From contig JAQVVM010000005.1 in assembly GCA_028698995.1 (NCBI GenBank), positions 1-64,000 of the forward strand: 64,000 nucleotides of DNA. Direction: 5' to 3'. This document shows positions 1 through 64,000 of the stretch, one piece after another. The notes under the pieces are model-generated. The model was given only the letters and a program-made list of their open reading frames with translations. It did no database searches and had not been told where the DNA came from. The stretch is from Bacteroidales bacterium. Its GTDB lineage: Bacteria; Bacteroidota; Bacteroidia; Bacteroidales; PXBB01. Numbering within the stretch: position 1 is the first letter of the stretch; every line of letters begins with the position of its first letter. Position numbers and translations under genes: made by a program.

Positions 1-602
1 TAAAAGATAAGTCTTTTGAAGTATTAGAAATAAAACCAGAAACATTAGAGCAACAACCAGTTTGGATGAGCCAAGACACAAAAGCATTTATTCAATTTGC
101 TCAGTTTTTTTCTAAAAACGCAAGTGTGCTGTCTGCCGGAAGATTAAAACCAGACATCTATCGTAGTGATAATAATAAGTTTCATATCGACTATTTTATT
201 AAAATATTTGATAGAAATACAAAAGAAGTATTACCTACTCCTGCTCGTATAGGACATACTACAGGTGCAATAGAAGTTTCTAAGGCAGATTTTATGAACT
301 ACACAGTGCCAATGAGAATGATTATTTTATTGCACGAATACGCCCATAAATACCTTAATCCATCTATTAATAAACCTATAGGATATGAAACGGGAGCAGA
401 CATGAACGCATTAAACATATACCTTTCGTTAGGTTATCCTCCAAGCGAGGCTCATTATGCTTTTTTACACGTTTTTAAAGACTCGAACAACGGAGAAAAT
501 ACAAAAAGATACCGAATTATTAAAGATTTTATAGATAGATTTACCAGAGGACAAATAAAAGGATCTTTTCAAGCTAAAACAAATAGGGCAAATGGAAAAT
601 AA
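1..602 (+). CDS. zincin-like metallopeptidase protein, 5' end outside window
   Basis: The reading frame is open from the left edge, so the ATG at 66 is probably internal and the true start lies upstream. Counted from that ATG, residues 90-94 read HEYAH, the HExxH zinc motif. A downstream acidic segment (ETGAD, residues 108-112) could supply the third ligand, as in gluzincins. There is no signal peptide or TM in the visible part. The stop overlaps the next start by 11 bp, so it belongs to the left structural operon. The substrate is unknown; a virion maturation protease or an anti-host peptidase are both possible. Confidence 0.7.
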   Translation, partial: KDKSFEVLEIKPETLEQQPVWMSQDTKAFIQFAQFFSKNASVLSAGRLKPDIYRSDNNKFHIDYFIKIFDRNTKEVLPTPARIGHTTGAIEVSKADFMNYTVPMRMIILLHEYAHKYLNPSINKPIGYETGADMNALNIYLSLGYPPSEAHYAFLHVFKDSNNGENTKRYRIIKDFIDRFTRGQIKGSFQAKTNRANGK

Positions 603-1242
603 GAATAACATACAGAAATTATATAGCAAAGCAATATTAGAGTATAGCTTAGTGCAGTTTAAGTTGGCTAATCCAACTAATAATGATGCTACGCTATTGT
701 TGTTTAATACTAATGCAACAACACCAATGCCAACTACACCTTTTGGCGAAGCAGGAGAGCCACAGTTTTATATTGCAGACGGCACTACAGAATACAATTC
801 ATTTGTTGCAGATAATGCTGGCAATCCTAAACAATTGCAACGTATAAAAATTATAGGAGAAGAAGCAAGTAATTTAAGTAATAGCTTAAAATTAATGAGA
901 AAATCTGCAACAGGTCAATCATGCGATTTTGTAGAGTTTCCTGATAATAAAGTTTTTGTAAATCAATTCCAAGGGCAAATTGCTCAAATAGATTTAGAAG
1001 ATTATACCTTAGATGGAAATGCTGTAATACAATATACTGTTCCTGCCAATACAACAATTAAATGGTTGTTATATTATAAAGAAATTGTTAAAAGAAGCCT
1101 ATTACCGGGAGCAAAAGAAAGCACGTTTGGAGATTTGCCTTACATTGGTTCTCCTACCTATACCGAACAGAGATTAAAAGACACTACAGTAGAAAACCAA
1201 TGGTTAGATTTTTTAGAAGTAACCAAACAAATTAGTAAATAG
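592..1242 (+). CDS. soluble beta-rich protein, candidate capsid or spike protein
   Basis: 216 aa without TM or signal peptide, rich in alternating hydrophobic and polar residues typical of beta sandwiches. The C-terminal half (about residues 95-165: Gln-rich, then VPANTTIKWLLYYKEI) resembles the C-terminal domain of the TM-anchored protein at 4404-5222 (YPNSSVNIIVYYEDV), with the same order of blocks. The two are probably a soluble and a membrane-anchored version of one virion fold. It overlaps the upstream gene by 11 bp. Capsid or penton function is inferred only. Confidence 0.75.
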   Translation: MENKNNIQKLYSKAILEYSLVQFKLANPTNNDATLLLFNTNATTPMPTTPFGEAGEPQFYIADGTTEYNSFVADNAGNPKQLQRIKIIGEEASNLSNSLKLMRKSATGQSCDFVEFPDNKVFVNQFQGQIAQIDLEDYTLDGNAVIQYTVPANTTIKWLLYYKEIVKRSLLPGAKESTFGDLPYIGSPTYTEQRLKDTTVENQWLDFLEVTKQISK

Positions 1243-1257
1243 AATAAAACAAATAAA

Positions 1258-1377
1258 ATGGCAAAAAAGAAAACAAAAACAGGATCAAAAAGCTGCTCAA
1301 AAGTAAAAGCTTACGAAACCAAAGAAGGGAAAAAAGTAAGCAGCTATGCACGTAAAAAAGCAAAGAAAAAGAAGTGA
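1258..1377 (+). CDS. 39-aa Lys-rich basic peptide, possible DNA-condensing protein
   Basis: A short ORF starting ATG at 1258 and ending TGA at 1375-1377, 16 bp after the previous stop. About 17 of 39 residues are Lys or Arg, with N- and C-terminal Lys runs (MAKKKTKTGSKSC; ARKKAKKKK). Small arginine- or lysine-rich peptides are virion DNA-condensing proteins in other membrane-containing or adenovirus-like viruses. That role is inferred here from composition and position only. Confidence 0.55.
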   Translation: MAKKKTKTGSKSCSKVKAYETKEGKKVSSYARKKAKKKK

Positions 1378-1382
1378 AAAAG

Positions 1383-1491
1383 ACCGAAGTCCGAAGACGG
1401 AAGTCAGAAGAATGACTAAAAGCCAACTTCCTCCCTCTGGGAGGACTGAGGTGGGACAAACCAATAACCTCATAAACTATTAAACTAACTA
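1383..1491 (+). repeat. composite intergenic repeats (GAAG-type, CCTCC...GGGAGG type) plus AT leader
   Basis: Three short dispersed repeat types lie head to tail. First is the 'gaagtccgaagacggaagtc' type at 1383-1407. Second is a 'cctccctctgggagg' imperfect palindrome at 1428-1445. Third is the 'aacctcataaactattaaact' leader that directly precedes the ATG at 1492. Related copies recur throughout the window. Confidence 0.7.
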
Positions 1492-1914
1492 ATGAACCCA
1501 ACCAAAATAATACCAACTAGAACTTCATCCTCTCAGGCATGGATTCAATGGCATAAAGCCATGAAATCTCGCTATGGTAAAAAACAAGCGAACATGCTTT
1601 TTGTAAAAGCTTGGGATGTTCGTGCAGGAGCTGGAACAGCAGCAAGCACTAATGAGTTGCGTGAATACATGAAAAACCAAGGAGTAAACATAGACACCAC
1701 TACTTTTGAAGGAGTTACAGATTCTATTTCTTCTGGATTAGATGGCATAGGAGATTTTTTTACTATGGGAAAATACTTTGTAATAGGCATAGGGGTAATT
1801 ATAATTGGAGGAGCAGGGTTGTTGGTTTACAACCTAACCAAAAACCCAAGTAAATCTATTTCGGCAGCAGCCAATTTTACGCCAATAGGTAGAACTACTA
1901 AATTGTTAAAATAA
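1492..1914 (+). CDS. small membrane protein with C-terminal TM
   Basis: 140 aa. The N-terminal half is soluble and basic (SQAWIQWHKAMKSRYGKKQA). A glycine- and isoleucine-rich TM segment at about residues 93-115 is followed by a 25-residue basic tail. No family recognised. It sits in a run of single-TM genes of similar size, which suggests virion inner-membrane proteins. Confidence 0.75.
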   Translation: MNPTKIIPTRTSSSQAWIQWHKAMKSRYGKKQANMLFVKAWDVRAGAGTAASTNELREYMKNQGVNIDTTTFEGVTDSISSGLDGIGDFFTMGKYFVIGIGVIIIGGAGLLVYNLTKNPSKSISAAANFTPIGRTTKLLK

Positions 1915-1920
1915 TTAGAA

Positions 1921-2412
1921 ATGGACAAAAGACAAATAATAAACATAACAATTGGCTCTTTAGTAGTAGGTTCTATAGGGTATTTTGCCTATACTAAAAT
2001 TAGAAATGCCAAAGAAATTAAATTTATACATGCAGCTTTAGAGGGTAGTGGCGGATATGGCACTATTAAAGATTTTGCTAATGTGTTTCAAGGAAACGCT
2101 TACATAGATAGCATTAAAAATAAATATCCAAACGTAATTTTATTAGTAAATGATGCTATAACAGCTAATAGAAAAGCACTATACAATGCAATAAAAGGAG
2201 TTGGTACTGATACAGATGAAGTAAAAAACGTATTTAGAAATTTAAAAGACAAAGTGCAAATTGCCCAAGTAGCCGATTCGTACCAACGTAATTATAAAAC
2301 TAATTTGTTAGATGCAATAATGGATGAATTTACTTTTAGATCCGGAAGTGAAAATGCAGATGAATTAACAGAAATAATGAAATCAAAACCAGACTTTAGA
2401 GTAGCAGGATAA
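1921..2412 (+). CDS. N-anchored membrane protein with annexin-like repeat
   Basis: 163 aa. A TM segment at residues 6-25 is followed by a helical domain. Residues 87-155 match the annexin repeat pattern: LYNAIKGVGTDTDE (the KGxGT type-2 calcium/phospholipid loop), a helix, YQRNYKTNLLDAI, an acidic residue about 40 residues after the loop, then a closing helix. Annexins bind acidic lipid bilayers through this loop. A membrane-bending or lipid-binding role in a virion is inferred. It starts 6 bp after the preceding stop. Confidence 0.7.
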   Translation: MDKRQIINITIGSLVVGSIGYFAYTKIRNAKEIKFIHAALEGSGGYGTIKDFANVFQGNAYIDSIKNKYPNVILLVNDAITANRKALYNAIKGVGTDTDEVKNVFRNLKDKVQIAQVADSYQRNYKTNLLDAIMDEFTFRSGSENADELTEIMKSKPDFRVAG

Positions 2413-2434: not shown

Positions 2435-2944
2435 ATGACTAAAAAACAAACCATACTAATAATAAGCGGAGGCATATTGCTTACAGCAGCAGGTATAGGA
2501 GCTTACCATCTTTGGTTTAAAGACAAAGATAGAACTAACCCAGATTTAGAAAAACTACAAAAAGATTTAGGAAGTACAGGTGGAGAAGTAGCAAAACCAT
2601 CTGAAGATGAATATTCATCTAATATAAAACAATCCGGTAGTTATAAAGGAAGTTCTGTAATAGCAATTGGAGACGAAGGCAGAAAAGTAGCACTAATGCA
2701 AGCTCTATTAAACCATTACGAAAATGCAGGACTAAAAATTGACGGATTATTTGGAAATGCTACTAGATTAGCCTTATTAAAAACAGGATTTGTACGTTGC
2801 ACCGTAGCGGCTACTTGCGAAATTTCTATGACAGATTTAAACAAGTATTTAACTAAAACCAAAACAGATAGCACTTTTAATAAAAATTATAGCGTATCCA
2901 CTAATAAACAAATGAAAGCAGTTTACGATAAATATTCATCATAA
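2435..2944 (+). CDS. TM-anchored peptidoglycan-binding domain protein
   Basis: 169 aa. TM at residues 5-27, then an acidic linker and a PG_binding_1-like domain at about residues 75-120 (IGDEGRKVALMQALLN, KIDGLFGNATRLAL), whose hallmark is 'DGxFGxxT'. It probably binds the host cell wall while anchored in the virion or host membrane. The downstream gap carries a 16-bp palindrome nested in a repeat. Confidence 0.75.
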   Translation: MTKKQTILIISGGILLTAAGIGAYHLWFKDKDRTNPDLEKLQKDLGSTGGEVAKPSEDEYSSNIKQSGSYKGSSVIAIGDEGRKVALMQALLNHYENAGLKIDGLFGNATRLALLKTGFVRCTVAATCEISMTDLNKYLTKTKTDSTFNKNYSVSTNKQMKAVYDKYSS

Positions 2945-3030: not shown

Positions 3031-4062
3031 ATGACACAAGCAGAAATACTACACGAAGAACAATTGAAGAAACAATTAGCAATGAACAACAGCCAAAAAG
3101 AAATAGCTATGGAAAGAAAGTATCAACAAAGCCCATACATGAACAAGCCGTTTGATGTTGATATTCTTATTGCTGCTGTTAATGCTATTAAAAAAACCAA
3201 TGATTATATTTTAGGGACGGGGATAAATAAAAATCAAATTGATATTATCAATAAAAAGATATTAGAACTTAAAAACAAAGGAGTGACAAGTATTGACGGT
3301 GTATTATTCTTAAAAATAAGAACTCCTAAATACAATATTACAAAACCAGGTTCTTTAATAGGTAGTATTTTTGAAACACCTGTTTCTGCTAATTTAGCCG
3401 AATTATGGTGGGTAAAAAATCCTTGTGTTAAAGATTATTTATCAAAAATGTTTCAACATCCAGATAAAGTTAAAACTTTCTATAATAAGTTTAAAGAAAT
3501 TGAATCTCAAAATTGGGATGAATCTAACGGACTTACAGGGCAAGTTTCTAACATTGCTCATACTTTATACGCTTTAAAAATTTGGAAAGCAGATACGTTG
3601 GCAAAATTAAAATCTTTTCAAAACAATGCTAATTGTCCGGAAGTAATTCCACGACCAAGATTAAACAGGCAAAATTTACAAGTACAAACCGCTACAGCAG
3701 GAGCTAGTTTTTCAAATTATGCAGGAGTAACAGAATTTATTGTGGACACACCTACATCATCATATATTAGTTACGATATAACTGAAGATGCAGTAGATTA
3801 TGTTTTTGCCGAAGCACAAAAAGAGCAAGATAGAAGACAAGTTCCTACACCACAAATTAATGTAGATAATGAGGCTAAACTAAATAAAGCCTTAGCCGAA
3901 AAAGCAGCCTTAGAACAAAAATTAATAGAACAAGCAGCTCAAAAAGCAGTAGCACCAAACAAATTCAATATGAACTATGTTTATATTGGAGGTGGAATTT
4001 TATTAGGATTAATAGCTTTAAAATTTGTATTTGGTAGCAAAGGAACTAAAGCAATTAGTTAA
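3031..4062 (+). CDS. virion-type membrane protein with C-terminal TM
   Basis: 343 aa with a helical soluble domain, a coiled-coil segment (about residues 288-310, repeated LNKALAEKAALEQKL pattern) and one TM near residues 316-333 followed by a short basic tail. It is the largest membrane protein of the block. No family recognised. The start follows the AT-rich leader with no Shine-Dalgarno. Confidence 0.75.
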   Translation: MTQAEILHEEQLKKQLAMNNSQKEIAMERKYQQSPYMNKPFDVDILIAAVNAIKKTNDYILGTGINKNQIDIINKKILELKNKGVTSIDGVLFLKIRTPKYNITKPGSLIGSIFETPVSANLAELWWVKNPCVKDYLSKMFQHPDKVKTFYNKFKEIESQNWDESNGLTGQVSNIAHTLYALKIWKADTLAKLKSFQNNANCPEVIPRPRLNRQNLQVQTATAGASFSNYAGVTEFIVDTPTSSYISYDITEDAVDYVFAEAQKEQDRRQVPTPQINVDNEAKLNKALAEKAALEQKLIEQAAQKAVAPNKFNMNYVYIGGGILLGLIALKFVFGSKGTKAIS

Positions 4063-4143: not shown

Positions 4144-4407
4144 ATGACCAAAAAACAACTATTAATAAATGCAGCCATTATAATTTTTGTACCAACAGTA
4201 ATTACAGCAGGTTATTATGGTTATAAAGCTTATAAACACTATAAAAACAAAAAGAAAGGAGAAAATGAAGACGATGAAATAAGTAACAAAGAAAAAGAAG
4301 CAAGTATAGAAATAGATAAAGAAGCAAAAGTAATTCCTCTAAACTCATTTAAGCCAGCAATACAAAAAATAGAAAATAATACTGAAAAAACAGAAAAACA
4401 AGTATGA
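4144..4407 (+). CDS. small N-anchored membrane protein
   Basis: 87 aa. TM at residues 6-24, a basic stop-transfer segment (KAYKHYKNKKKGE), then a charged tail. It overlaps the next gene by 4 bp (ATGA), indicating translational coupling. No family recognised. Confidence 0.7.
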   Translation: MTKKQLLINAAIIIFVPTVITAGYYGYKAYKHYKNKKKGENEDDEISNKEKEASIEIDKEAKVIPLNSFKPAIQKIENNTEKTEKQV

Positions 4408-5222
4408 AAAAAAATACCATAAATACAGTACTAACCCTTATAGGTTTTGCAAGTGTTAGCTTTGCGGCTGTGCAAGGTGTTAGATATTTTTTAGCTAAAA
4501 AGGAATTAGATAAAGAAGAGGAAGAAGAAACTAGTAGTTTTTCGGGAGACAAAAACCTTAAAACAATTACCTTTAAGCTAAAAAATGATACCAACCAAAT
4601 GCAAACAGAATACTTGTTTGATGGGTTTGGAGGTAAAGATAATACTAACGTTACTGTTTCAGGTAATTTAGCCGAGTTTAATAGTGAATTAACAAATATT
4701 CCTAAAATTGTTAAAAAAATAGAGTTTAGAGCAAAACAATCTTTTTCTAGAATTGATGGAGAAGAAGTAAAGCCATCGGATGAAGCAGTAACTACCGATT
4801 TAAAATCTTATGGAACTATTATGGCAGAAAGAACAGTTACTAAAGACGTAGCAGACGATGTTGCCACTACTGAGCCTGTAGAAAAATCGGATACTGTAAT
4901 AGCTCCTACACAAGATAGTGCGGATGCTCCGGAAGCACCAGAAGAAACAGTAATTGAAGAACCAATTGTGGCAGAAGCACCACAATACAATCAAGCAGAA
5001 GCACCATTTAAAATTATTTGCAAAGATGCTAGTGGAAATGCAAGTACCACACAATATTTGCCATTAGTAGCTGCTACACAATACCAAAGTAATATTACAT
5101 CTGTAAAATTTAAAAATTTAATACTAGATGGGGTTTGCTTAATGAAATACACCATGTACCCAAATTCATCAGTAAACATAATAGTATATTATGAAGACGT
5201 GAAAAAAAAGAAAAAAGATTAA
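4404..5222 (+). CDS. TM-anchored protein with split beta domain related to 592-1242
   Basis: 272 aa. N-terminal TM (residues 5-28), Glu-rich stretch, a beta domain (about 50-115), then an Ala/Pro/Glu-rich insertion (about 140-198) and a second beta segment ending YPNSSVNIIVYYEDV and a Lys tail. The two beta segments line up with the first and second halves of the 592-1242 protein, so this looks like the same fold with an insertion and a membrane anchor. Possibly a capsid-membrane link protein. Confidence 0.75.
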   Translation: MKKNTINTVLTLIGFASVSFAAVQGVRYFLAKKELDKEEEEETSSFSGDKNLKTITFKLKNDTNQMQTEYLFDGFGGKDNTNVTVSGNLAEFNSELTNIPKIVKKIEFRAKQSFSRIDGEEVKPSDEAVTTDLKSYGTIMAERTVTKDVADDVATTEPVEKSDTVIAPTQDSADAPEAPEETVIEEPIVAEAPQYNQAEAPFKIICKDASGNASTTQYLPLVAATQYQSNITSVKFKNLILDGVCLMKYTMYPNSSVNIIVYYEDVKKKKKD

Positions 5223-5246: not shown

Positions 5247-5807
5247 ATGAAAAATAATATAGATGGAAACGCAATAATTGGATTACTAAATTTAGTAGAA
5301 TCTAAGGGAGTAAATTTTGTTATGAATACACAGCCTTATGTTAGAGATTTAATGTATAGCATAAATAAAGGGTGGATAACAATGGTGCATGTTGAACAAG
5401 CACAAGCTAGGTATGTAGCTAACTTAAAAAAAGCTGAAGAAAAAAGAAAAGAAGACCAATTCATAAAAGATAAACTTATTGAACAAGCAGAAGAAAAGAA
5501 AAGACAAGAAGAAGTAAAAGTAAGAATATTACAAGAAGAGTTGGCTTCCAACCGACAGAAAACAGAACAAGAACGCCAAAAAGCAGAACAAGAGTTACAA
5601 AAAGCTAGAACAGAAGCAGAAAAAGCAAGATTGGCCGCAAACTTAGCCAATAAAGGCGAAGCAGGAGATATTGCAGCAGCAAAAACCCTAATGGGAACTT
5701 GGGAAAGCAAAGGCGTTAACCCATGGATGATTGCAGGTATTTCCGTAGGGGCATTAGTAGTGGGAGGGATTGTGTATAAAATTTTAGGAAAAAAAATAGC
5801 GTCTTAG
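5247..5807 (+). CDS. coiled-coil protein with C-terminal TM
   Basis: 186 aa. Residues 55-135 form a long charged coiled coil (Glu/Lys/Gln/Arg heptads), followed by a TM at about 160-177. The last codons and TAG stop (5799-5807) lie inside a copy of the dispersed GCGTCTTAGC repeat, so the C-terminal residues 'IAS' come from repeat DNA. A stalk or spacer in the viral membrane is plausible; no family recognised. Confidence 0.7.
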   Translation: MKNNIDGNAIIGLLNLVESKGVNFVMNTQPYVRDLMYSINKGWITMVHVEQAQARYVANLKKAEEKRKEDQFIKDKLIEQAEEKKRQEEVKVRILQEELASNRQKTEQERQKAEQELQKARTEAEKARLAANLANKGEAGDIAAAKTLMGTWESKGVNPWMIAGISVGALVVGGIVYKILGKKIAS

Positions 5808-5860
5808 CATCTTTGTGAGAACATCAAACATCAAACTTTAAACCTTTTAAACCAAAAAAA

Positions 5861-6457
5861 ATGAAACTAAACATCAACAAAATGATAAACGACCTTGTTT
5901 TTGCAAGAAGACAAGAAGTAATTGCTGCATTAAATCTTGCAGGCATACCTACCAATACAGATATTACTCCTGAAAATTTATATGGAGTAGTAATGAATGA
6001 GTTAAACAACCAAAATGAAGAACTATACACTACATTAGGGACTGTACTAGATAATACCTTCGATTTGTCAAGCCTAAGCAATAATGAAGTTTTTTCAGGA
6101 CAAGATGGAACAACAACCACAGGTACAGGTGGTGGTTTTATGAGTAATGTAGATTGGGGATCTGTAGCATCTAAAGGAGTTGGTTTATTAACTAACTTCT
6201 TTGGAAAAAAAGACGATACACCAATTTATACACCTCCAGCTTCAACAGGTGGTGGTGGAGTAGATGCAAACACTTTGTTAATAATGCAACAGCAGCAACA
6301 AGCCGCACAAAATGCTAGAGATGAAAAACAAAGCAGAGAAGATGCTGCAAGAAGATCAACCACCTTATGGGTAGTTGGTGGAATAGCCACAGTATTAGTA
6401 GTTGGAGGAATTATTACAGCAGTAATTATTTCTAAAAACAAAGCAAAAGCAGCATAA
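5861..6457 (+). CDS. Gly-rich membrane protein, paralog of 7219-7527 at its N-terminus
   Basis: 198 aa. Residues 1-75 are a helical domain ending 'NTFDLSSL', which aligns over its length with the 102-aa protein at 7219-7527 (ending 'KTFDLSPL'). A Gly/Thr-rich linker (about 85-130), a Gln-rich stretch and a TM at 169-191 follow. No known family. The shared N-domain suggests partners or a duplication within the virion membrane set. Confidence 0.7.
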   Translation: MKLNINKMINDLVFARRQEVIAALNLAGIPTNTDITPENLYGVVMNELNNQNEELYTTLGTVLDNTFDLSSLSNNEVFSGQDGTTTTGTGGGFMSNVDWGSVASKGVGLLTNFFGKKDDTPIYTPPASTGGGGVDANTLLIMQQQQQAAQNARDEKQSREDAARRSTTLWVVGGIATVLVVGGIITAVIISKNKAKAA

Positions 6458-6480
6458 AAAATAACCAATAATTAATAATC

Positions 6481-6840
6481 ATGAATAGTCATATAAGTAT
6501 AGAGAAAAAAAGTGAATGGATTGGAACAGCAATAGAAGGGTTAGCTACTATTGGCACTACTTATTACGGCTCAAAACAAGAAGAAAAATACCTTAAAAGC
6601 CAACAAGAACAAGAGTTGAAGTTAAAATTGTTAGATGCAGCAAAACAAGCTCAAATGACAAAACAGTTGCAATTGGCAGCATCCCAATCTACTCTATACG
6701 GAAATTTAAGTAGTGCTGAAATAGAAAGAAAAAAACAACAAACAAAAACAACTGTAATTATAGTTGGATCTGCAATATTAGGATTAACAATAATAATAGG
6801 TTCTATTTTTATTTATAAAAAACAGCGTGTAAAAAAATAA
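6481..6840 (+). CDS. single-TM protein, member of a three-gene paralog family
   Basis: 119 aa with a hydrophobic N-terminus (WIGTAIEGLATIGTTYYG), a Gln-rich helix, the block 'GNLSSAEIERKKQQTKTTV' and a TM at 91-112. The same architecture and block occur at 8080-8421 ('GNILSAAEIEKKK') and 8492-8878 ('SSEIAAEKAKTKK'). Probably a repeated minor membrane protein; function unknown. Confidence 0.7.
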   Translation: MNSHISIEKKSEWIGTAIEGLATIGTTYYGSKQEEKYLKSQQEQELKLKLLDAAKQAQMTKQLQLAASQSTLYGNLSSAEIERKKQQTKTTVIIVGSAILGLTIIIGSIFIYKKQRVKK

Positions 6841-6850
6841 ATCTAAAAAA

Positions 6851-7186
6851 ATGAATACATTATTAGAAATAGGAAAAGTTAGGGAGGAAATAAAGGCTCT
6901 TGAAAAAGAGGCAACTAATTTACCCAGAGTAATAAGGGAAAAAAGAGGGATAGATGTTAAATTAACTGAATTAAGAAAAACAGAGAAATTGTTATTGTTA
7001 CAATTAGACCAAGAAAAAAAAGGAATATATGTTAATAATAATTCAGAAACAAGTAGCACGGAATTTATTCAATCGGACGACAATAAAAAATTAATAGGAA
7101 TAGCGGTTGGAGTAGTTGGATTACTAACATTATCACTAATAGTTGTTGTTGTTGTTAAAAAAATAAGAAAAAACAAACAACAATAA
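6851..7186 (+). CDS. coiled-coil single-TM protein
   Basis: 111 aa. An N-terminal helix with heptad character (residues 5-60), a polar stretch, then a Val/Ile/Leu-rich TM (81-102) and a basic tail. It starts 10 bp after the previous stop. No family recognised. Confidence 0.65.
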   Translation: MNTLLEIGKVREEIKALEKEATNLPRVIREKRGIDVKLTELRKTEKLLLLQLDQEKKGIYVNNNSETSSTEFIQSDDNKKLIGIAVGVVGLLTLSLIVVVVVKKIRKNKQQ

Positions 7187-7218
7187 TCTCCTCCCTTTGG
7201 GAGGATTAAGCTGGGAAT

Positions 7219-7527
7219 ATGAAACAATTAAATGTAGCAAAAATAATGGAGTTTATTGTGGCAAATAAACCACAAGAATTAAGAGATGTTCTACAAATTT
7301 CTGGCGTAACCGTAAATGGAGAAATAACCATGCAAAAAATTGAGCATATTGTAAAAATGGAAAATAGTAAAGGAAATAAATTAGTAGCCAACAATATTGC
7401 AGTTTTAATAAGCAAAACATTTGATTTAAGTCCATTATTAGAAGAAAAAGGATCCTCTAATTTTTCTGGAAAAAGACAATTAATGATAGTAGGAACCAAT
7501 GGCACTAAAAAAATAGTAGAATATTAA
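7219..7527 (+). CDS. small soluble protein sharing the N-domain of 5861-6457
   Basis: 102 aa without TM. It matches the first 75 residues of the 5861-6457 protein in spacing and in the closing motif 'TFDLSPL'. The intergenic DNA before it carries a CCTCCC..GGGAGG palindromic repeat (7190-7207). Function unknown. Confidence 0.65.
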   Translation: MKQLNVAKIMEFIVANKPQELRDVLQISGVTVNGEITMQKIEHIVKMENSKGNKLVANNIAVLISKTFDLSPLLEEKGSSNFSGKRQLMIVGTNGTKKIVEY

Positions 7528-7528
7528 T

Positions 7529-8083
7529 ATGTTAGAACTAACTAAAATAGAGAAATTAAAAAATAGTTTGTTTTCAAATTACGACAGTCTTACTAAGCAC
7601 GAAATTAGAGAGTCTATAGTAGAATTGGAAAACCAAATTTCCACCTCAAATATTGAAGGTCGTGTTGTTTTTCATGGAGATAGTAATTTTTGTCCATTAG
7701 AACATGATTTTTCAGAAGGTGTTTATCTTAGAAAACTATCCATCCCAAAAGGTACGTTGGTAGTTGGTAAAATTCACAAACACCAACACCATAACATAAT
7801 CACCAAAGGGAAGGCAATTGTTATTTCTGAAGACAAAAGGAAGGAAATAGTAACAGCTCCATGCACCATTGTTAGCGAGGCAGGAGTTAAGAAAATTGTT
7901 TACGCATTAGAGGATACCGAATGGATAAATGTACATCATAACCCTACTAATTCAAGAGATATTAGTTTTTTAGAAGAACAACTTATATCAAATTCTTACG
8001 AGGAATACAATAAATTTATTAAAGATAAAATGAATGTATTAAGTAAATTAAAAAAAGTATTAATTAAAAATTTATCAATATGA
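7529..8083 (+). CDS. cupin-fold protein
   Basis: 184 aa. The central part (about residues 55-110) has the cupin pattern: LSIPKGTLVVGKIHKHQHH, then NIITKGKAIV and a second strand set, with clustered His residues as potential metal ligands. A helical C-terminal tail follows. It is coupled to the next gene by ATGA overlap. In phages, cupins of this kind sit among structural genes; substrate unknown. Confidence 0.7.
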   Translation: MLELTKIEKLKNSLFSNYDSLTKHEIRESIVELENQISTSNIEGRVVFHGDSNFCPLEHDFSEGVYLRKLSIPKGTLVVGKIHKHQHHNIITKGKAIVISEDKRKEIVTAPCTIVSEAGVKKIVYALEDTEWINVHHNPTNSRDISFLEEQLISNSYEEYNKFIKDKMNVLSKLKKVLIKNLSI

Positions 8084-8421: not shown

Positions 8422-8440
8422 GAAAATATTTTGAAATATA

Positions 8441-8473: not shown

Positions 8474-8491
8474 TAAATTTAAATAAAACAA

Positions 8492-55597: not shown

Positions 55598-55679
55598 CAT
55601 ATATTGCGAGGTGGAGCGTAAAAAAATTGTTCTTTGAAAATAATATTGTAGGTTTTAATCATAGTACGCTACTTTTTAC

Positions 55680-55687
55680 TATATTTG
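55680..55687 (+). promoter_or_regulatory. -7 element TATATTTG
   Basis: Ends 4 bp before the ATG at 55692, so the HNH mRNA would have almost no 5' leader. Confidence 0.5.
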
Positions 55688-55691
55688 TGTT

Positions 55692-56228
55692 ATGGAACTA
55701 TCAAAAACAAATAAATTAATGGTATATGCTTCAAGTAAAGGATATGTTGTTGATGAAAAAGGAGATGTATATTACAAAAACAGAAAACGTGCTTTATTTA
55801 AGGATCATCATGGATATTTAACATTTTCAGTTAAAATGTATGATAATGAGAAGAAGAAAGACTATATAAGTAGAGTTTTTGTGCATAAATTACAAGCGTT
55901 CCAAAAATATGGAATGAAAATGTTTGAGGAAAAAATACAAGTTAGGCATTTGGATTCAATAAAAGACAATAATTGTTTTGAAAATATTGCAATTGGAACT
56001 CCATCTCAAAATCAAATGGATAGATGCGAAAAAGAAAGAAGAGAAATGGCTATTTCAGCGTCATATAAAAGAAGGATACTGTCAGATGAAGAAGTCAAAA
56101 ATATGATAGAAGATAGAGAGAGTGGAATGAAGTATAAAGAGTTAATGAAAAAGTACTCTATATCTTCAAAAGGAACACTAAGTTATATAATAAATAAGTC
56201 TATATATTATAAGAAAAATAAAGAATAA
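55692..56228 (+). CDS. HNH endonuclease (homing-type)
   Basis: 178 aa. HNH signature: RVFVHKLQAFQKYG (His65), VRHLDSIKDNNCFENI (His86, Asn94, Asn98) and GTPSQNQMDR. A C-terminal HTH-like end (MKYKELMKKYSISSKGTLSY) would read DNA. Free-standing HNH genes inside tRNA arrays behave as homing elements; target unknown. Confidence 0.85.
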   Translation: MELSKTNKLMVYASSKGYVVDEKGDVYYKNRKRALFKDHHGYLTFSVKMYDNEKKKDYISRVFVHKLQAFQKYGMKMFEEKIQVRHLDSIKDNNCFENIAIGTPSQNQMDRCEKERREMAISASYKRRILSDEEVKNMIEDRESGMKYKELMKKYSISSKGTLSYIINKSIYYKKNKE

Positions 56229-56232
56229 TTAT

Positions 56233-56306
56233 TGAGAAGTAGCTCAGTTGGTTAGAGTTTGAAACTGATACTTTCACGGTCGGAGGTTCGAGTCCTTCCT
56301 TCTCAA
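56233..56306 (+). tRNA. tRNA-Ile (GAU)
   Basis: Acceptor TGAGAAG/CTTCTCA, anticodon stem TGAAA/TTTCA with loop CTGATAC (GAT), T-arm GGAGG-TTCGAGT-CCTTC. Confidence 0.88.
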
Positions 56307-56352
56307 CAAAAAAGCCATCTTCCTTTTGGGAAGGTTAATGTTAAAAAAATAA

Positions 56353-56425
56353 TTCAACGTAGCTCAGTTGGTAGAGCGTTCGACTGTTAATCGAGTGGAC
56401 GTAGGTTCGAGTCCTACCGTTGGAG
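56353..56425 (+). tRNA. tRNA-Asn (GUU)
   Basis: Acceptor TTCAACG/CGTTGGA (one T-G pair), anticodon stem TTCGA/TCGAG with loop CTGTTAA (GTT), discriminator G typical for Asn. Confidence 0.9.
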
Positions 56426-56432
56426 CAAAAAA

Positions 56433-56627
56433 ATGATTATGAATAAAATAGAAATTTTAGACATTAATCCATACGGAATACCGATGTGTGATGAATTAAA
56501 GTCAATTGTGTTAACACAAAAAGTAGTAGATTACAGAGGAACAGCCATAGTAGAAGATGCTGAAATAGAAAATAGAGTATTAAAAAGTAAATTAGGCAGG
56601 CCCGATTTAAAAATAAACATAAAATGA
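56433..56627 (+). CDS. small hypothetical protein in the tRNA array
   Basis: 64 aa, no TM: IEILDINPYGIPMCDELKS then a charged end. It starts 8 bp after tRNA-Asn. The following 25-codon ORF (ATG 56624) runs into tRNA-Glu and may be a truncated gene. No family recognised. Confidence 0.5.
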   Translation: MIMNKIEILDINPYGIPMCDELKSIVLTQKVVDYRGTAIVEDAEIENRVLKSKLGRPDLKINIK

Positions 56628-56675
56628 AAACAAATTTGGTACATATCGAAACGGAAGAACCAAGCGAGGAAATTT

Positions 56676-56748
56676 GCTCGGTTCGTCTAAGTGGTTAGGA
56701 TAGCAGACTTTCAATCTGCTGATGCGGGTTCGATTCCCGTACCGAGTA
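56676..56748 (+). tRNA. tRNA-Glu (UUC)
   Basis: Acceptor GCTCGGT/ACCGAGT (G-U at the end), anticodon loop CTTTCAA (TTC), T-arm GCGGG-TTCGATT-CCCGT. Confidence 0.9.
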
Positions 56749-56757
56749 CAAAAATAA

Positions 56758-56831
56758 GCAGTAGTAGCTCAGTTGCTTAGAGCGTCTGCCTTCCAAGCAG
56801 AGGGTCGTGAGTTGGAATCTCACCTACTGCT
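56758..56831 (+). tRNA. tRNA-Gly (UCC)
   Basis: Acceptor GCAGTAG/CTACTGC, anticodon stem TCTGC/GCAGA with loop CTTCCAA (TCC), T-arm GTGAG-TTGGAAT-CTCAC. Confidence 0.9.
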
Positions 56832-56883
56832 CCAATAGCAAAACCATACACACTTCGGGAAAAGTGTAAAAAAAGTTTTGTTA

Positions 56884-57026
56884 GAAGAACTATCAAATAA
56901 AATAAAGCCCTATTGGTATGCAGATTGATAGTAAAATATAAGGAAAGGTTAAAGACCTTACGTTGTTACTGCAAAACAACAATGTTTATGAAAAAGCCTT
57001 GTGTTAGCTGCTTTTGGTAGTTCTTC
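56884..57026 (+). ncRNA. structured RNA candidate between tRNA-Gly and tRNA-Met
   Basis: A perfect 9-bp closing stem GAAGAACTA/TAGTTCTTC (56884-56892, 57018-57026) encloses CTATCAA/TTGATAG, AAGGT-taaag-ACCTT and GTTGTT/AACAAC hairpins. About 143 nt, no ORF. A preceding hairpin ACACTT/AAGTGT lies near 56852-56869. Could be processed together with the tRNAs. No known class. Confidence 0.5.
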
Positions 57027-57036
57027 AATTTATTTT

Positions 57037-57110
57037 GTGTCTTTAGCTCAGTTGGTTAGAGCGTTACACTCATAATGTAAGGGTCGGTGGTTCAAGTCCA
57101 TCAAGGCACA
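57037..57110 (+). tRNA. tRNA with CAU anticodon (Met elongator or Ile2)
   Basis: Acceptor GTGTCTT/AAGGCAC (one T-G), anticodon stem TTACA/TGTAA with loop CTCATAA (CAT), T-arm GGTGG-TTCAAGT-CCATC. Sequence alone cannot tell Met from lysidine-modified Ile. Last tRNA of the array. Confidence 0.88.
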
Positions 57111-57240
57111 CGAGAGAGTTAGGAGGGAGAAGTTCTTTTGTGAAGTCGTGATAATTCTGAAAAAATATTTTTCTATTACCTTCTTTATCACCTTTTTCCC
57201 AATCTATTAATTTTTTTGGTTCTAATTTTTTCTTTTCCAT
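57070..57240 (-). pseudogene. truncated minus-strand ORF running into tRNA
   Basis: ATG at 57240-57238 (minus) begins a basic sequence (MEKKKLEPKKLIDWEKGDK); the frame continues into the complement of the CAU tRNA and stops at 57072-57070. Overlap with the tRNA suggests a gene truncated by the array. No family recognised. Confidence 0.35.
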
Positions 57241-59173: not shown

Positions 59174-59656
59174 ATGTCAGAAAAATACGAGGAAAAAGAA
59201 TTAGCACGGTTAATAGCTGTTGCTTTAGAAAAATCAAAAAAAATTTCTTTAAAAAAACTTACCGAAACACTTCTTAATGTACAATGCGTAGATGATGTAA
59301 AATCATACACCATTTTAAGGTATATTATTGATGCAGCATCGGAAGAGTTTGGTATATCCAAAGATAATTTAATGGGTGCAGGAAGAACTCACGAAATAGC
59401 TCTATGTAAAAGAATTTCCATATTAATGGCTATAGAATACACCAATTTTAAAGATAAAAAAATAGCATTTGAGTTTGATACATCAAGACAATTTGTGCAT
59501 CGTGTGAAAAAAGAATTTAACACAATGGAAAGGGGTAAAAAAAGTTCGGATTGGTACTTTGATAAGTATGATAAACTTAATGATAAAATAAACCAATTTG
59601 TAAAAGGATTAGGAATGGAAAATATAACCATATATAACGATGGTAAGGAGGATTAA
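59174..59656 (+). CDS. DnaA domain IV-like DNA-binding protein
   Basis: 160 aa. Residues about 50-115 follow the DnaA C-terminal pattern: IIDAASEEFGISKDNLMGAG, RTHEIALCKRISILMAIEYT, NFKDKKIAFEFDTSRQFVHR. There is no AAA+ domain. It could bind the viral origin or a promoter. Weak similarity but correct spacing. Confidence 0.6.
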   Translation: MSEKYEEKELARLIAVALEKSKKISLKKLTETLLNVQCVDDVKSYTILRYIIDAASEEFGISKDNLMGAGRTHEIALCKRISILMAIEYTNFKDKKIAFEFDTSRQFVHRVKKEFNTMERGKKSSDWYFDKYDKLNDKINQFVKGLGMENITIYNDGKED

Positions 59657-59744: not shown

Positions 59745-60677
59745 ATGTCAGAGTCATTTAACCCCATGCTTGAGCCAAAAATAGAGAAAGAATATACTTC
59801 CGACTTTATTAAAGCAAATTTAGGAGACGAAAAATATACAGATGAACCCATTCCTGAATTTAAGCCCACCAAACCGCCTGTAGAAGCAAGTGCAGAACCC
59901 GAACAGCCAAAAGTGGAGCGTGAGCCGGTAGTAGGAGAGTACAAAGAAATGAGTCCTACCGAAAAAAGAAATAAAGCCGAAGCTACGGCAGATGGAATTT
60001 TGCACCAGTATTGCGAGTACGTACCCAAGCCTTTTATTCATTTGTCTTCATTTAATATGAAGAAAATGGAAAAAATGTACCGACAAGGAGAAATAGACCT
60101 TAAAATGCCCGTACCAAATACAGGGCTTAATGTAGGGCAGTATGCAGCTACTTACAATGCAGAAGTACAACAAATTTTTGAGGTACAACCAGAAACAAGA
60201 GAAGCTATAAGGGAACCATTGGTAGAAGTACTAATGGAACAAGGCATGGTGCTTACACCTACTCAGCGTTTGTTAATGGCAGTAGGAGGGCATATTGTTA
60301 GTATGGGAATTCAGACTGCACAGTTGTATCGTTCTAAAAAAGAAGATATGGACTTGTTTAGAGAAGCTTATATTAATATTTCCGAAAAAAGAAGATCGGT
60401 AAATGACATTAACCCTAACATTCCGGAGAATTACATGCAACAATCAGGAGGTAATAATACACCACCTCCACCGCCTCCTCCACCACCACAAACAGAAACC
60501 AAGCCAGCAGAAACAAGCTCAGAAGAAGAAGCAATTGTTCCACCAACTATGGGAAATATAATAGTAGAAGAAGAGGAAGAAACCATAGATTTAAAATCTT
60601 ACTTAAACAGCGATAGCGATCATATAGATAATGATGATTCTATTATTGTAGAAGAAGAATTACCTGAAAACGATTAA
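59745..60677 (+). CDS. Pro-rich protein next to the packaging ATPase
   Basis: 310 aa. Acidic, Pro-rich N-terminus (about 30-75), a helical core domain (about 80-220), a run of nine prolines (near residue 240) and an acidic tail. No TM. Position suggests a structural or assembly protein; no family recognised. Confidence 0.6.
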   Translation: MSESFNPMLEPKIEKEYTSDFIKANLGDEKYTDEPIPEFKPTKPPVEASAEPEQPKVEREPVVGEYKEMSPTEKRNKAEATADGILHQYCEYVPKPFIHLSSFNMKKMEKMYRQGEIDLKMPVPNTGLNVGQYAATYNAEVQQIFEVQPETREAIREPLVEVLMEQGMVLTPTQRLLMAVGGHIVSMGIQTAQLYRSKKEDMDLFREAYINISEKRRSVNDINPNIPENYMQQSGGNNTPPPPPPPPPQTETKPAETSSEEEAIVPPTMGNIIVEEEEETIDLKSYLNSDSDHIDNDDSIIVEEELPEND

Positions 60678-60698: not shown

Positions 60699-61517
60699 AT
60701 GAGCAGAAAAAAAATAGAAACAAGAGATGCTATAATGATGGTTGCCACAGGTCAGCAAAGGGTTGGGAAAACATTTCAGACAACTAAATTTTTAGATAGC
60801 TACGTAAAAAATGATCCAATAACGGGTAAAAAAGGGCAAAAAGTATTGATTTTTGATACTAATATGGAATACACTCAATACAAATCCATTGGATTAGAAA
60901 ATATAAAAAGATTTATAATCCAAAAACACCCAGAAATAAGGAGGGTTTTGCCGCTTCGACCAGATGGTAATATATGCGATTCAGACGAAAAAGTAGAAAT
61001 ATTAGAGCAGTTGCTGAAATATTTTGCAAAAGGACTATTGGTACTTGAGGATATTAACAATTACCTTATTGATGCTAGTAGTACTAAAGTAATTAGTGCC
61101 ATTACAACCATAAGGCACAGAGAAGTAGATTTAATGATACATTACCAATCGTTAGCTGCATTACCTCCAAGAATGTGGCAAAATGCCTCTGTAATAAGAT
61201 TTCATAAACAGCAAGATACTATTGATAGATACAAGAGTAGAATACCTTATTACGAGCAGTTAAAAATTGCTGAATACTTAGTAAATGAGAAATATTTCTC
61301 AGGGAACGAAAGATTTTTTTGCTATGTTTCCGGAAGCTTAGGTTATATTAGAGGTGAGTTTTCTAAGAAAGATATAGAAAATGCTTGTAGAAAATATGCC
61401 GAGGGCAACTCTACAGAAACACAAGTATTAACGAAACGTTACCGAGGAGAAAAAAATGCCTACGAAAAAGCGGTAGAAGATGTAACACAAGAGTTGCTTA
61501 TTAAATATTATAAATAA
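60699..61517 (+). CDS. HerA/FtsK-type packaging ATPase candidate
   Basis: 272 aa. Walker A ATGQQRVGKT (16-25), VLIFDTNMEY (49-58), Walker B GLLVLED (112-118), and DLMIHYQS (144-151), a 'sensor' strand typical of the HerA/FtsK clan. Single-domain ATPases of this size drive genome packaging in tailless internal-membrane viruses (PRD1 P9 type). The neighbouring capsid candidate supports this, but a non-viral translocase cannot be excluded. Confidence 0.75.
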   Translation: MSRKKIETRDAIMMVATGQQRVGKTFQTTKFLDSYVKNDPITGKKGQKVLIFDTNMEYTQYKSIGLENIKRFIIQKHPEIRRVLPLRPDGNICDSDEKVEILEQLLKYFAKGLLVLEDINNYLIDASSTKVISAITTIRHREVDLMIHYQSLAALPPRMWQNASVIRFHKQQDTIDRYKSRIPYYEQLKIAEYLVNEKYFSGNERFFCYVSGSLGYIRGEFSKKDIENACRKYAEGNSTETQVLTKRYRGEKNAYEKAVEDVTQELLIKYYK

Positions 61518-61528: not shown

Positions 61529-62341
61529 ATGAAAAAACAAGAAACACCAACATCACCAGAAAGACTAATGTTTGATATGTATAATTTTAGTGGTAATGAA
61601 GCTTTATTATCACCATTTGGTAATAACCACCAGGAACATACTGGAGTAGTAAATTTAACAAAAGATTACAAAGTAAAAGGAGATGAGTTTGTGGGACTGA
61701 TGAGGATAATGTCGTACAGCGATAATTATTGGTTAGACTTGCTATGCACAGAAGCATTTTTGTTTGGGAAAAAAATAAACCTAATGAACTTATTTAGCCC
61801 AATCCAATTTCAAAAAGGGATTATTGATTTACCAGTATGTGGGAAAATAAAAGATATTGACTTTAAAAAAACAATAGCTCATGGTAAAAACATAAGAGTT
61901 TCTTATTTTTTAATGCCAGAGTTAAAAGAACATCCTCGAACAAATATGGTAGATATTGAATATCTGAATAAACCAACTATGTGGTGTTATTTTAGAAATG
62001 CAACATCAAAATCAGTAAAAGTAGATTTAATTGAGTTGTGCAAAGGAAAGGAATTGGAGGGGATAGAGTTAATTCATAATCATTTTCAGATAAAAGAAGA
62101 AGAAATTATGCAGCATTTTAAATACATAACAGTGGCTTCAGATGAACCTAAAAATCTTACTCTCCCTTTAGAGTTTGATATAAGAGGGATTGGATTTATT
62201 CAATACATCAATCCTAATTATCCAAATCATCAGTGGCAAAATAATATCATTAAGGATGAAGTTGATTTAAAGGTTTATCCTTCGTCAAAATTAATGGTAA
62301 CTATACCACCAAGAGACACGATGATGTACTGCTTTAGATAA
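61529..62341 (+). CDS. beta-rich protein next to ATPase, major capsid candidate
   Basis: 270 aa, no TM, mostly short strands separated by loops (GLMRIMSYSDNYWLDLL, KNIRVSYFLMPEL, FDIRGIGFIQYIN). Size is close to the smallest known double-jelly-roll capsid proteins, and it lies 11 bp after the packaging-type ATPase. Fold prediction is needed; single jelly roll, spike or enzyme are alternatives. Confidence 0.5.
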   Translation: MKKQETPTSPERLMFDMYNFSGNEALLSPFGNNHQEHTGVVNLTKDYKVKGDEFVGLMRIMSYSDNYWLDLLCTEAFLFGKKINLMNLFSPIQFQKGIIDLPVCGKIKDIDFKKTIAHGKNIRVSYFLMPELKEHPRTNMVDIEYLNKPTMWCYFRNATSKSVKVDLIELCKGKELEGIELIHNHFQIKEEEIMQHFKYITVASDEPKNLTLPLEFDIRGIGFIQYINPNYPNHQWQNNIIKDEVDLKVYPSSKLMVTIPPRDTMMYCFR

Positions 62342-63033: not shown

Positions 63034-63048
63034 TTATAGGTTATTATT

Positions 63049-63069
63049 GAAATATATTTTATATATTTG
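63049..63069 (+). promoter_or_regulatory. variant of the shared 21-bp promoter
   Basis: Two mismatches to 43891-43911; -7 element TATATTTG at 63062-63069; ATG of the next gene at 63095. Confidence 0.6.
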
Positions 63070-63094
63070 GGGCTGAAATTAGAAAATTATTCAA

Positions 63095-63532
63095 ATGGGA
63101 ACTAAAAAAATAGTTGGTATATCTAAATTAGTAACGGATGAGATGATAGAAAAAAAATATCCGGAATTAAATCATTTCACTCAAGAAGATAAAATAAAGA
63201 GGGCTTACTTAATAGAAGGAGCAAAATGGATGCGAGATGAAATGACCGGAAGTAGAACTGAGATTATAGTAATTTGGGATGGGGGAAAAGAAACTTTTGA
63301 ATATTTAACGGAATTAAATAATAAATACAAAGAAAAGTTCCCAAAAAATCCTGCTAGATTTGATTTTTTAATGGATGATAAGAATGGTTTATGGTTAGTA
63401 AAGACTGATGGATTAGGTAAATATTCTTATAAAATGCCATTACATACATCAATAATATTAGAAACCATAGTCGATAATAAAATGTTTATTTTTAGTTTTA
63501 TGGAGAGCCTAAAACCACAACATCTGCGATAA
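63095..63532 (+). CDS. hypothetical protein
   Basis: 145 aa, no TM. MGTKKIVGISKLVTDEMIEK, a helical segment KRAYLIEGAKWMRDE and a beta C-terminus. No family recognised. Its own variant promoter sets it apart from the glycosyltransferases. Confidence 0.6.
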   Translation: MGTKKIVGISKLVTDEMIEKKYPELNHFTQEDKIKRAYLIEGAKWMRDEMTGSRTEIIVIWDGGKETFEYLTELNNKYKEKFPKNPARFDFLMDDKNGLWLVKTDGLGKYSYKMPLHTSIILETIVDNKMFIFSFMESLKPQHLR

Positions 63533-63552
63533 TCAGCGTTATCTGCGGGCAA
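63520..63552 (+). repeat. 33-bp exact dispersed repeat, copy 2
   Basis: Identical to 8441-8473. It starts inside the last codons of the preceding gene, so it encodes that protein's C-terminus (HLR). Confidence 0.8.
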
Positions 63553-63581
63553 CATCAAACCACAAACCTGAAACCTTACCC

Positions 63582-64000
63582 ATGCACCTCTATATCAACT
63601 TCTATACCGACAACAACCATTTTCGCAACCAAGAACTTTGTGTTTGCCTATTGTCCAATTTATTTAATGAAGAAATAAGTAAAACACATATTTTTATTGC
63701 TAAAAAAGATGTAAAACCATTTAAAGAATTAACCAAACAAATCCCTTCAGAAAAATACGAATTAATAATAAAAGAAGACAGACCGAGTTATAACGATTTT
63801 TTTAAAAAAACAGAACAATATCCCACTAGCATCAATATTATTGCTAATACCGATATTATATTGTGTGAAAACAGCCTCCAAAAACTAAAAAAATTCAATT
63901 GGGATAACCATATATTAGCCCTTTCTCGTTGGGATTTATTAGATAAATCGTTAGATACACATTCGGCTAAATTTCATAACCATTCCGATAGTCAAGATAC
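63582..64000 (+). CDS. glycosyltransferase-like protein, 3' end outside window
   Basis: At least 139 aa from ATG 63582, no stop before the edge. Begins MHLYINFYTDNNHFRNQELC; further on NIIANTDIIL and HILALSRWDLL resemble capsular or LPS-type glycosyltransferases with an N-x-D metal-binding element. Follows the GT2 gene in the same direction. Confidence 0.65.
   Translation, partial: MHLYINFYTDNNHFRNQELCVCLLSNLFNEEISKTHIFIAKKDVKPFKELTKQIPSEKYELIIKEDRPSYNDFFKKTEQYPTSINIIANTDIILCENSLQKLKKFNWDNHILALSRWDLLDKSLDTHSAKFHNHSDSQD

Follow-up and report, generated by a model that had tools for sequence, protein, structure and literature searches.

A circular 109-kb replicon from a Bacteroidales bacterium is probably the genome of a tailless virus

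We propose that C48, a 109,203-bp contig of a Bacteroidales MAG that includes the 64,000-nt window analysed here, represents in full the circular genome of a tailless dsDNA virus of Bacteroidales that is temperate or lives like a plasmid, a reading to which we give a probability of roughly 0.78. Most likely, C48 is a 109-kb member of a new single-jelly-roll lineage of tailless Bacteroidota viruses, with a Bacteroidales bacterium, judging from the binning, as its most likely host. A first-pass annotation of the window had suggested a large tailless lineage with an internal membrane, either an unusually large relative of PRD1-like viruses or an independent type; the tailless character has held, the PRD1-like double capsid has given way to a predicted single jelly-roll, and the virus probably carries a membrane, as its predicted transmembrane (TM) proteins suggest. 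Tailless viruses of bacteria and archaea have genomes of up to about 30 kb, and C48 is most likely several times larger than the known ones.

C48 is circular, because its ends overlap exactly over 127 bp and a 277-aa open reading frame spans the join; the full element is a complete circle with a unique length of 109,076 bp. It is also one replicon and no chimera, because tetranucleotide distances are 0.09-0.15 inside C48 versus 0.17-0.37 to host contigs and because an element-specific 22-nt repeat occurs both in the virion-like module described below and in the rest of the circle. All 18 copies of this repeat are intergenic and on the plus strand, and all ten near-exact copies in the whole genome sit on C48. 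A plasmid-type replication gene (Pfam Rep3_N, E 1e-11) and a ParB gene share a circular contig with virus-like genes, the combination expected of a phage-plasmid.

2951-62385, plus strand: 22-nt repeat GCGTCTTAGCGTCTTTGCGAGA, preceding genes, some copies with a hairpin insert (for example at 2951, 4107, 5799, 43058, 45515, 48242 and 62349)
20848-21612, plus strand: ParB (Pfam HTH_ParB, 1.6e-6)

The genes that point to a virion form a module of about 25 kb that crosses the circle join and consists of 46 co-directional genes. A simple hydropathy predictor finds a TM segment in 28 of them, exactly one in 26 of these 28 (the first-pass annotation had counted some 27 small single-TM proteins in the window), and a TM segment in 16 of the 138 C48 genes outside the module.

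Contig 104,100-109,076 plus 1-20,100, plus strand: virion-like module (window part 1-20100, extending upstream across the join to contig 104,100)
66-602, plus strand: HExxH metalloprotease of 277 aa, its frame opening beyond the join, near contig 108,845
1492-1914, plus strand: single-TM protein (hydropathy)
1921-2412, plus strand: annexin-repeat-like protein (Pfam Annexin 8.8e-6; relatives-only profile 6.8e-10)
2435-2944, plus strand: TM-anchored peptidoglycan-binding protein, kept in relatives (relatives-only profile 4.3e-11; weak PG_binding_1)
3031-4062, plus strand: protein with a C-terminal TM segment (hydropathy)
4144-4407, plus strand: protein with an N-terminal TM segment (hydropathy)
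5247-9142, plus strand: block of small proteins, mostly single-TM (hydropathy)
9333-9980, plus strand: CHAP/DUF2272 wall hydrolase with an N-terminal TM anchor (Pfam 8.1e-29)
10870-11463, plus strand: glucosaminidase with a hydrophobic C-terminus (Pfam 6.5e-27)
13559-14077, plus strand: LEA_2-like TM-anchored protein (Pfam 8.5e-9)
15296-16066, plus strand: M15 peptidase with PG_binding domain (Pfam 1.3e-15 and 2.1e-10)
16774-17514, plus strand: lectin-like protein (weak Laminin_G_3, 0.002)
17990-18626, plus strand: lysis candidates, one 2-TM holin-like and one 1-TM spanin-like protein (hydropathy, position)

The anchored cell-wall hydrolases of the first-pass annotation are borne out by the three hydrolase genes above, where the glucosaminidase is homologous to hydrolases of the relatives (1e-17) and the M15 protein is a candidate endolysin or virion hydrolase; the holin- and spanin-like products presumably serve lysis. 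The HExxH protein, recovered by the relatives-only profile (E 2.6e-8; hhalign 95%), is a candidate maturation protease. An FSGxxG motif, picked after looking at the sequences, occurs eight times in the module and nowhere else (shuffled mean 0.38), which is suggestive of sites for such a protease.

Candidate capsid proteins come from a family of 178-343 aa, assigned from predicted fold and neighbourhood, whose models show strands for one barrel only and so predict a single rather than a double jelly-roll. Profiles built from relatives alone recover two C48 members (3e-12 and 9e-9).

592-1242, plus strand: capsid-family protein with a predicted single jelly-roll (relatives-only profile E 9e-9)
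Contig 104100-104834, outside the window: the best capsid candidate besides 592-1242
4404-5222, plus strand: diverged jelly-roll-family paralogue with an N-terminal TM anchor (BLASTP 5.7e-6 to 592-1242; weak hhalign)
61529-62341, plus strand: protein directly downstream of the 60699-61517 ATPase

The AlphaFold model of 592-1242 is all-beta (pLDDT 69, pTM 0.61), in keeping with a jelly-roll family member, and Foldseek matches it to viral jelly-roll coat proteins with low TM-scores of about 0.25-0.4. Of the other two proteins first called capsid-like, 4404-5222 survives as a paralogue that gave no match to the relatives-only capsid profile, and 61529-62341 is dropped: it showed no tie to the jelly-roll family and no match in Pfam, PHROGs, PDB sequences or IMG/VR. 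This capsid family has no model in Pfam or PHROGs and would therefore escape virus searches based on marker genes.

Two HerA/FtsK-type ATPases had been reported in the window; the ATPases are confirmed, and their number on the circle is three.

60699-61517, plus strand: FtsK/HerA/A32-type genome-packaging ATPase (relatives-only profile 5e-20)
53738-54337, minus strand: third, distant packaging-type P-loop ATPase (relatives-only profile 1.1e-5; weak Pox_A32, 0.008)
Contig 65957-66736, outside the window: further ATPase

A homologous packaging ATPase of the FtsK/HerA type is common to most Varidnaviria, and 60699-61517 encodes one: its single PHROGs match (phrog_2666, 2.5e-5) is a family that also takes the packaging ATPases of PRD1, PM2 and P23-77, and it aligns over its full length with the P23-77 ATPase (hhalign 97.4%). 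Branches in the ATPase tree are long, and we place no weight on its grouping of the window copies with the small relative L020 (81/78). Position hinted that 59745-60677 is homologous to FAM5, which precedes the ATPase in small relatives; the comparison gave no support.

Some 35 relatives share the ATPase, the majority of them small proviruses of Bacteroidales. The small Bacteroidota proviruses (for example L080, L084, L020, L125, L126 and L085) appear about 10-28 kb long, and L085 is found in a cultured strain, Phaeocystidibacter luteus LMG 25704. Most of the relatives also encode an HExxH protease, proteins with a membrane anchor and a beta protein of 180-340 aa. Profiles from these relatives alone recover the C48 ATPase, jelly-roll protein, HExxH protease, annexin-like protein (conserved and membrane-anchored in the relatives) and peptidoglycan-binding TM protein, the gene set of the lineage. 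Four loci found through the capsid profile alone have the ATPase family 0.2-2.5 kb away. Within the order, 11 of 393 genomes carry the capsid family; among 394 other genomes drawn phylum-wide, none does. The relatives' conserved upstream families F4, F5 and F9 have no match in the window. Weak ATPase matches in G061:C7 and G056:C132, both amid ordinary host genes, are chance, and the matches of a phylum-wide ATPase search, with loci L087-L103, are Walker-A background. IMG/VR scans with 60699-61517, 61529-62341, 38415-41015 and contig 104100-104834, which as single-protein scans detect close relatives only, gave no further large member, and tblastn of phage and plasmid records with the ATPases and one relative's capsid protein gave no match. 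We found no published description of a family containing C48 and these small viruses.

Unlike C48, the small proviruses have a primase-helicase-like replication module, and around their ATPase lie 4-12 TM genes and 1-2 members of the capsid family; the C48 module is enlarged, with 2-3 capsid-family paralogues, 2-3 ATPases and 28 TM genes. An unlikely alternative is that a plasmid took over its virion module from a small tailless virus and makes particles that hold a small genome or just a portion of the 109 kb: Rep_3 and ParB have plasmid roles, accessory genes fill 80 kb, and every relative found appears small. However, this was no simple module insertion, because the small viruses' replication gene FAM11 is absent from C48 and about 40 kb separate the 60699-61517 ATPase from the capsid operon; the module, moreover, is enlarged and has the repeats and composition of C48 itself.

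Less probable still is a domesticated or dead module whose jelly-roll and TM proteins assemble into a structure of the cell surface or membrane, such as a fibre or vesicle, and no virion. The top PDB fold match of the 592-1242 model is indeed the bacterial fibre protein Ena2A, but the varidnavirus-family packaging ATPase, wall hydrolases and lysis-like genes, the gene order kept across relatives (some with integrases) and the open state of all module frames argue for a virus.

That C48 derives from a tailed jumbo phage or conjugative plasmid with diagnostic genes diverged beyond recognition is very improbable: polyvalent proteins, tRNAs and a methyltransferase (49248-50594) 58% identical to that of the tailed flavophage Larrie of Tenacibaculum do occur in tailed phages, but the complete circle gave no match to the Caudoviricetes set (large terminase, portal, HK97 capsid, tail) or the conjugative plasmid/ICE set (relaxase, VirB4, VirD4/TraG) among proteins of at least 280 aa, scanned against Pfam (the methyltransferase against PHROGs). 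Among proteins of this size, the reported lack of terminase, portal and tail genes extends from the window to all 109 kb, no conjugation genes appear that would explain the membrane proteins, and the polyvalent proteins, tRNAs and tmRNA noted at first are all present.

20110-20596, minus strand: permuted tmRNA (ARAGORN; Rfam RF04321, 51.1 bits versus a cut-off of 47)
28117-32490, plus strand: 1457-aa polyvalent protein with hemerythrin and sliding-clamp-like regions (Pfam, PHROGs)
33075-41015, plus strand: two polyvalent proteins with ParB_N, 2'-5' RNA ligase/Acb1-like and LPD11 (9e-32) domains
54636-57111, plus strand: 11 tRNA genes
59174-59656, plus strand: DnaA C-terminal-domain-like protein (Pfam 6.4e-7, under the curated cut-off)

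How does a tailless virus of this kind compare with known ones? The nearest known capsid architecture is predicted to be that of P23-77 and the Halopanivirales rather than PRD1. The Thermus phage P23-77 (Halopanivirales, Helvetiavirae) shares with C48 a homologous packaging ATPase, a circular genome and, on the predictions for C48, the tailless state and the single-jelly-roll capsid, and like the small relatives it has the ATPase upstream of the capsid genes. It differs in host phylum and in genome size (17 kb versus 109 kb), and its VP16 and VP17 show no sequence or profile similarity to the C48 capsid proteins. Sphaerolipoviridae genomes are about 30 kb (PMC12643093). Of the Helvetiavirae hallmarks, namely a pair of single-jelly-roll MCPs with homology to those of P23-77/Sphaerolipoviridae and genomes of about 16-30 kb, C48 at 109,076 bp agrees in its predicted single-jelly-roll architecture alone. 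PM2 (corticovirus) and PRD1 (tectivirus) of the Bamfordvirae share the phrog_2666 ATPase family, though their ATPases are more distant than that of P23-77, and are likewise tailless, with numerous small membrane proteins, wall hydrolases in the virion and a membrane (inferred in C48); unlike C48, they have 10-15 kb genomes and the double-jelly-roll MCP. FLiP (Finnlakeviridae), a Flavobacterium phage, is also tailless, lipid-containing (as C48 would be) and from a Bacteroidota host, and has a 9-kb ssDNA genome, a double-jelly-roll capsid and no packaging ATPase (PMC5894146). The C48 capsid family shows no similarity to the PM2, PRD1 or FLiP MCPs.

A more specific proposal, on which we are evenly divided, is a giant tailless membrane virus whose varidnavirus-type ATPase packs 109 kb into a large single-jelly-roll shell, matured by its metalloprotease at FSGxxG-type sites. 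In our main reading, the replicon would persist as a circular plasmid; upon induction, jelly-roll proteins would enclose a lipid vesicle full of single-TM proteins in an icosahedral shell, the protease would mature module proteins, perhaps at the recurring motif, the ATPase would pump the genome into the particle, and the hydrolases and holin/spanin-like proteins would act in entry and lysis. The enlarged module would fit a larger particle. Virions, and the packaging of all 109 kb, are what we infer from these genes.

Large eukaryotic varidnaviruses are known to have grown in genome and capsid size. A giant C48 virus, if real, would be an independent bacterial case of such growth, in a new higher taxon across Bacteroidales, and a tailless bacterial virus of 109 kb would mean that large genomes are no privilege of tailed phages or eukaryotic giant viruses. 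According to a 2021 review, the known single-jelly-roll varidnaviruses all form one family-level group (PMC8328091). That group underlies the theory in which fusion of single jelly-rolls gave rise to double-jelly-roll capsids. A widespread Bacteroidota single-jelly-roll lineage would supply a second branch for testing this theory.

Within the module, the lectin-like protein at 16774-17514 is a possible receptor-binding spike. By inspection, L020 has a protein that resembles the LEA_2-like 13559-14077.

Here, we propose that the 109-kb circular element C48 carries a virion-like module (contig 104,100-109,076 plus 1-20,100, across the circle join; positions without the prefix "contig" are those of the window) that, with the membrane inferred, would work as in dsDNA viruses that lack a tail and contain a membrane, and that the element leads a phage-plasmid-like life. 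We infer that the whole circle is packaged, C48 being the single large member known.

C48 comes from a 4.47-Mb metagenome-assembled genome, the host being assigned to Bacteroidales by binning. It comprises 109,203 bases with an exact 127-base overlap between its ends, and the frame of gene 66-602 stays open upstream over the joined ends to give a 277-aa protein; C48 therefore closes into a full circle of 109,076 bp. Tetranucleotide distances around it are even (0.09-0.15, versus 0.17-0.37 to three further contigs from this genome), and a repeat of 22 bases is present 18 times, each copy intergenic and nearly all directly 5' of a gene start:

Window 2951, 4107, 5799, 43058, 45515, 48242 and 62349, and contig 66767-107645; all plus strand; copies of the 22-nt repeat

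Some copies carry an inserted CCCGATAGCTATCGGG hairpin, and in the whole genome all 10 near-exact copies lie on C48. This element-specific repeat is likely a cis-regulatory signal and, together with the even composition, argues that the virion module and the remainder form one replicon.

The module has small relatives. A profile from two window ATPases gave matches in the same order, on contigs bearing the same kind of module, and further searches yielded 6 IMG/VR contigs and about 25 Bacteroidota genome loci, nearly all Bacteroidales. Cultured carriers include Phaeocystidibacter luteus LMG 25704 and Prolixibacter denitrificans DSM 27267, the latter with a remnant lacking a capsid gene. The relatives appear to be about 10-28 kb in size, as estimated from the lengths of their contigs and the extents of their modules, and several have an integrase and adjoin host genes (loci L020 and L125). 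Their usual gene order is a primase-helicase-like protein, the conserved families F4, F9 and F5, the ATPase, an HTH protein, the beta protein (the capsid-family candidate), an HExxH protease and, last, TM proteins, some of which bear peptidoglycan-binding or lytic domains. Two relatives also encode reverse transcriptases (L058:3069-4055, RVT_1 6e-17; L056:11736-12728), possibly of diversity-generating retroelements.

Protein families made from the relatives alone were afterwards compared with the window's 186 proteins. The ATPase profile gave three matches (5e-20, 9e-12 and 1e-5), the beta-protein profile matched contig 104100-104834 (3e-12) and 592-1242 (9e-9), and the HExxH protease, annexin-like and peptidoglycan-binding TM protein profiles matched 66-602 (2.6e-8), 1921-2412 (6.8e-10) and 2435-2944 (4e-11), respectively. 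In genome searches, a beta-protein profile was positive in 11 of 393 genomes of the order and, in a phylum-wide draw of 395 genomes, in none except the window's own; since 592-1242 is among the 22 rows of this profile, its own score there is not evidence. The ATPase family lies close by in four newly found beta-protein loci (L125, L126, L129 and L130), two others being partial or at a contig edge.

The candidate packaging ATPase, 60699-61517, matched one family among 38,880 in PHROGs, phrog_2666 (E 2.5e-5). In a control scan this was also the top family for the ATPases that package PRD1, PM2 and P23-77 DNA (1e-64, 3e-50 and 2e-38), so that the name it carries, "terminase large subunit", reflects habit. 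A profile built from the ATPases of 23 relatives is closer to that of P23-77 (97%, aligned over its length) than to those of PM2 (76%) or PRD1 (40%). The element has two to three ATPases, the further copies being:

Contig 65957-66736; second ATPase copy, 33% identical to 60699-61517
Window 53738-54337; third, distant ATPase, 1.1e-5 to the relatives-only profile

For the capsid candidate, the AlphaFold model of a typical relative is all-beta, with strands for one barrel and a C-terminal helix (pLDDT 84, pTM 0.76), and that of 592-1242 has a similar fold at lower confidence (pLDDT 69, pTM 0.61). Most Foldseek matches of the latter were small icosahedral viruses' coat proteins (TM-scores 0.25-0.4, with E about 1e-3 and a probability close to 1), the top match being the fibre protein Ena2A; the relative's model had no PDB match below E 1e-3, its viral matches being weak. 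The modelled fold is probably a single jelly-roll, and the family's size (178-343 aa) speaks against a double one. Profile comparison found no sequence link to P23-77 VP16/VP17, PM2 P2, PRD1 P3 or the FLiP MCP, and no PHROGs family matched the relatives' proteins. The ATPase supports placing the element in Varidnaviria, and for the capsid such a placement is plausible; membership of Halopanivirales or of the double-jelly-roll groups is not supported. In the literature consulted, the single-jelly-roll kingdom holds only the sphaerolipovirus group (PMC8328091), with genomes of about 30 kbp in the family Sphaerolipoviridae (PMC12643093). No such Bacteroidetes group is described in a census of prokaryotic viruses with double jelly-rolls (PMC5894146). 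We found no published description of the lineage in the literature searched, which covered bioRxiv in part.

The window's module is enlarged, with TM segments in 28 of its 46 genes (relatives: 4-12 such genes in up to 10.5 kb starting at the ATPase, some loci being cut) and two clear capsid-family members plus a diverged one, 4404-5222 (small relatives: one to two genes). The motif [FY][SA]GxxG occurs 8 times in the module's 8,227 aa and is absent from the remaining 23,529 aa (0.38 expected after shuffling), and resembles a YxGxGD motif near the N-terminus of many relatives' capsid-family proteins. As the operon also encodes an HExxH protease, the motif suggests maturation cleavage, for which we hypothesise that it may be the signal; alternatively, it may be a shared assembly tag. 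In three tail-anchored module proteins (contig 106547-108644), the C-terminal TM segment is preceded by a common KPLHF-type motif, one pair matching by BLASTP at 5e-8.

All proteins of at least 280 aa from the whole 109-kb circle, the module included, were scanned against Pfam (methyltransferase 49248-50594 against PHROGs instead), and among them no terminase, portal, HK97 capsid, tail, relaxase, VirB4 or VirD4 was found. At this size, the first-pass annotation's absence of terminase, portal and tail genes thus extends around the circle, and the conjugation genes it had named as counting against a virus did not appear. Its tRNAs, tmRNA and polyvalent proteins are borne out by 11 tRNAs, a permuted tmRNA and a clamp-like region inside a polyvalent protein. 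ParB and a DnaA-C-like protein are also encoded, alongside:

Contig 86963-87982; Rep_3 initiator
Contig 75468-76268; tyrosine integrase
Window 20110-20596; minus strand; permuted tmRNA (Rfam RF04321, ARAGORN tmRNA*)

Most known permuted tmRNAs come from alphaproteobacteria, some betaproteobacteria and cyanobacteria, and one is therefore unexpected in a Bacteroidales element.

Several accessory genes were also observed. Protein 46132-46956 (plus strand), a possible virus-coded transcription regulator, has a putative HTH part and the C-terminal domain of an RNA polymerase alpha subunit (1.4e-16). A CAP12/Pycsar-effector-type protein with a TIR domain (contig 74471-75367, minus strand, or L002:10471-11367 in a stretch of C48 itself; 8e-35) is likely a defence gene carried by the element, and a TnpB/OrfB-type gene of the IS605 group lies at contig 102451-103638 (minus strand; L003:18451-19638, likewise C48). 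An Anp1-like glycosyltransferase (contig 101676-102467, minus strand) is common to the element and two relatives (L084:10620-11345 and L086:7451-8176; 5e-32). A PAPS-reductase-like gene (contig 68419-69432, or L002:4419-5432) has an apparent counterpart, by inspection, in the small relative L022 (15889-16776), and P23-77 likewise has one, ORF3. Finally, a methyltransferase/DUF4942 protein (51771-53231, minus strand) is 58% identical over its full length to a protein of Tenacibaculum phage Larrie, which points to gene exchange with tailed flavophages.
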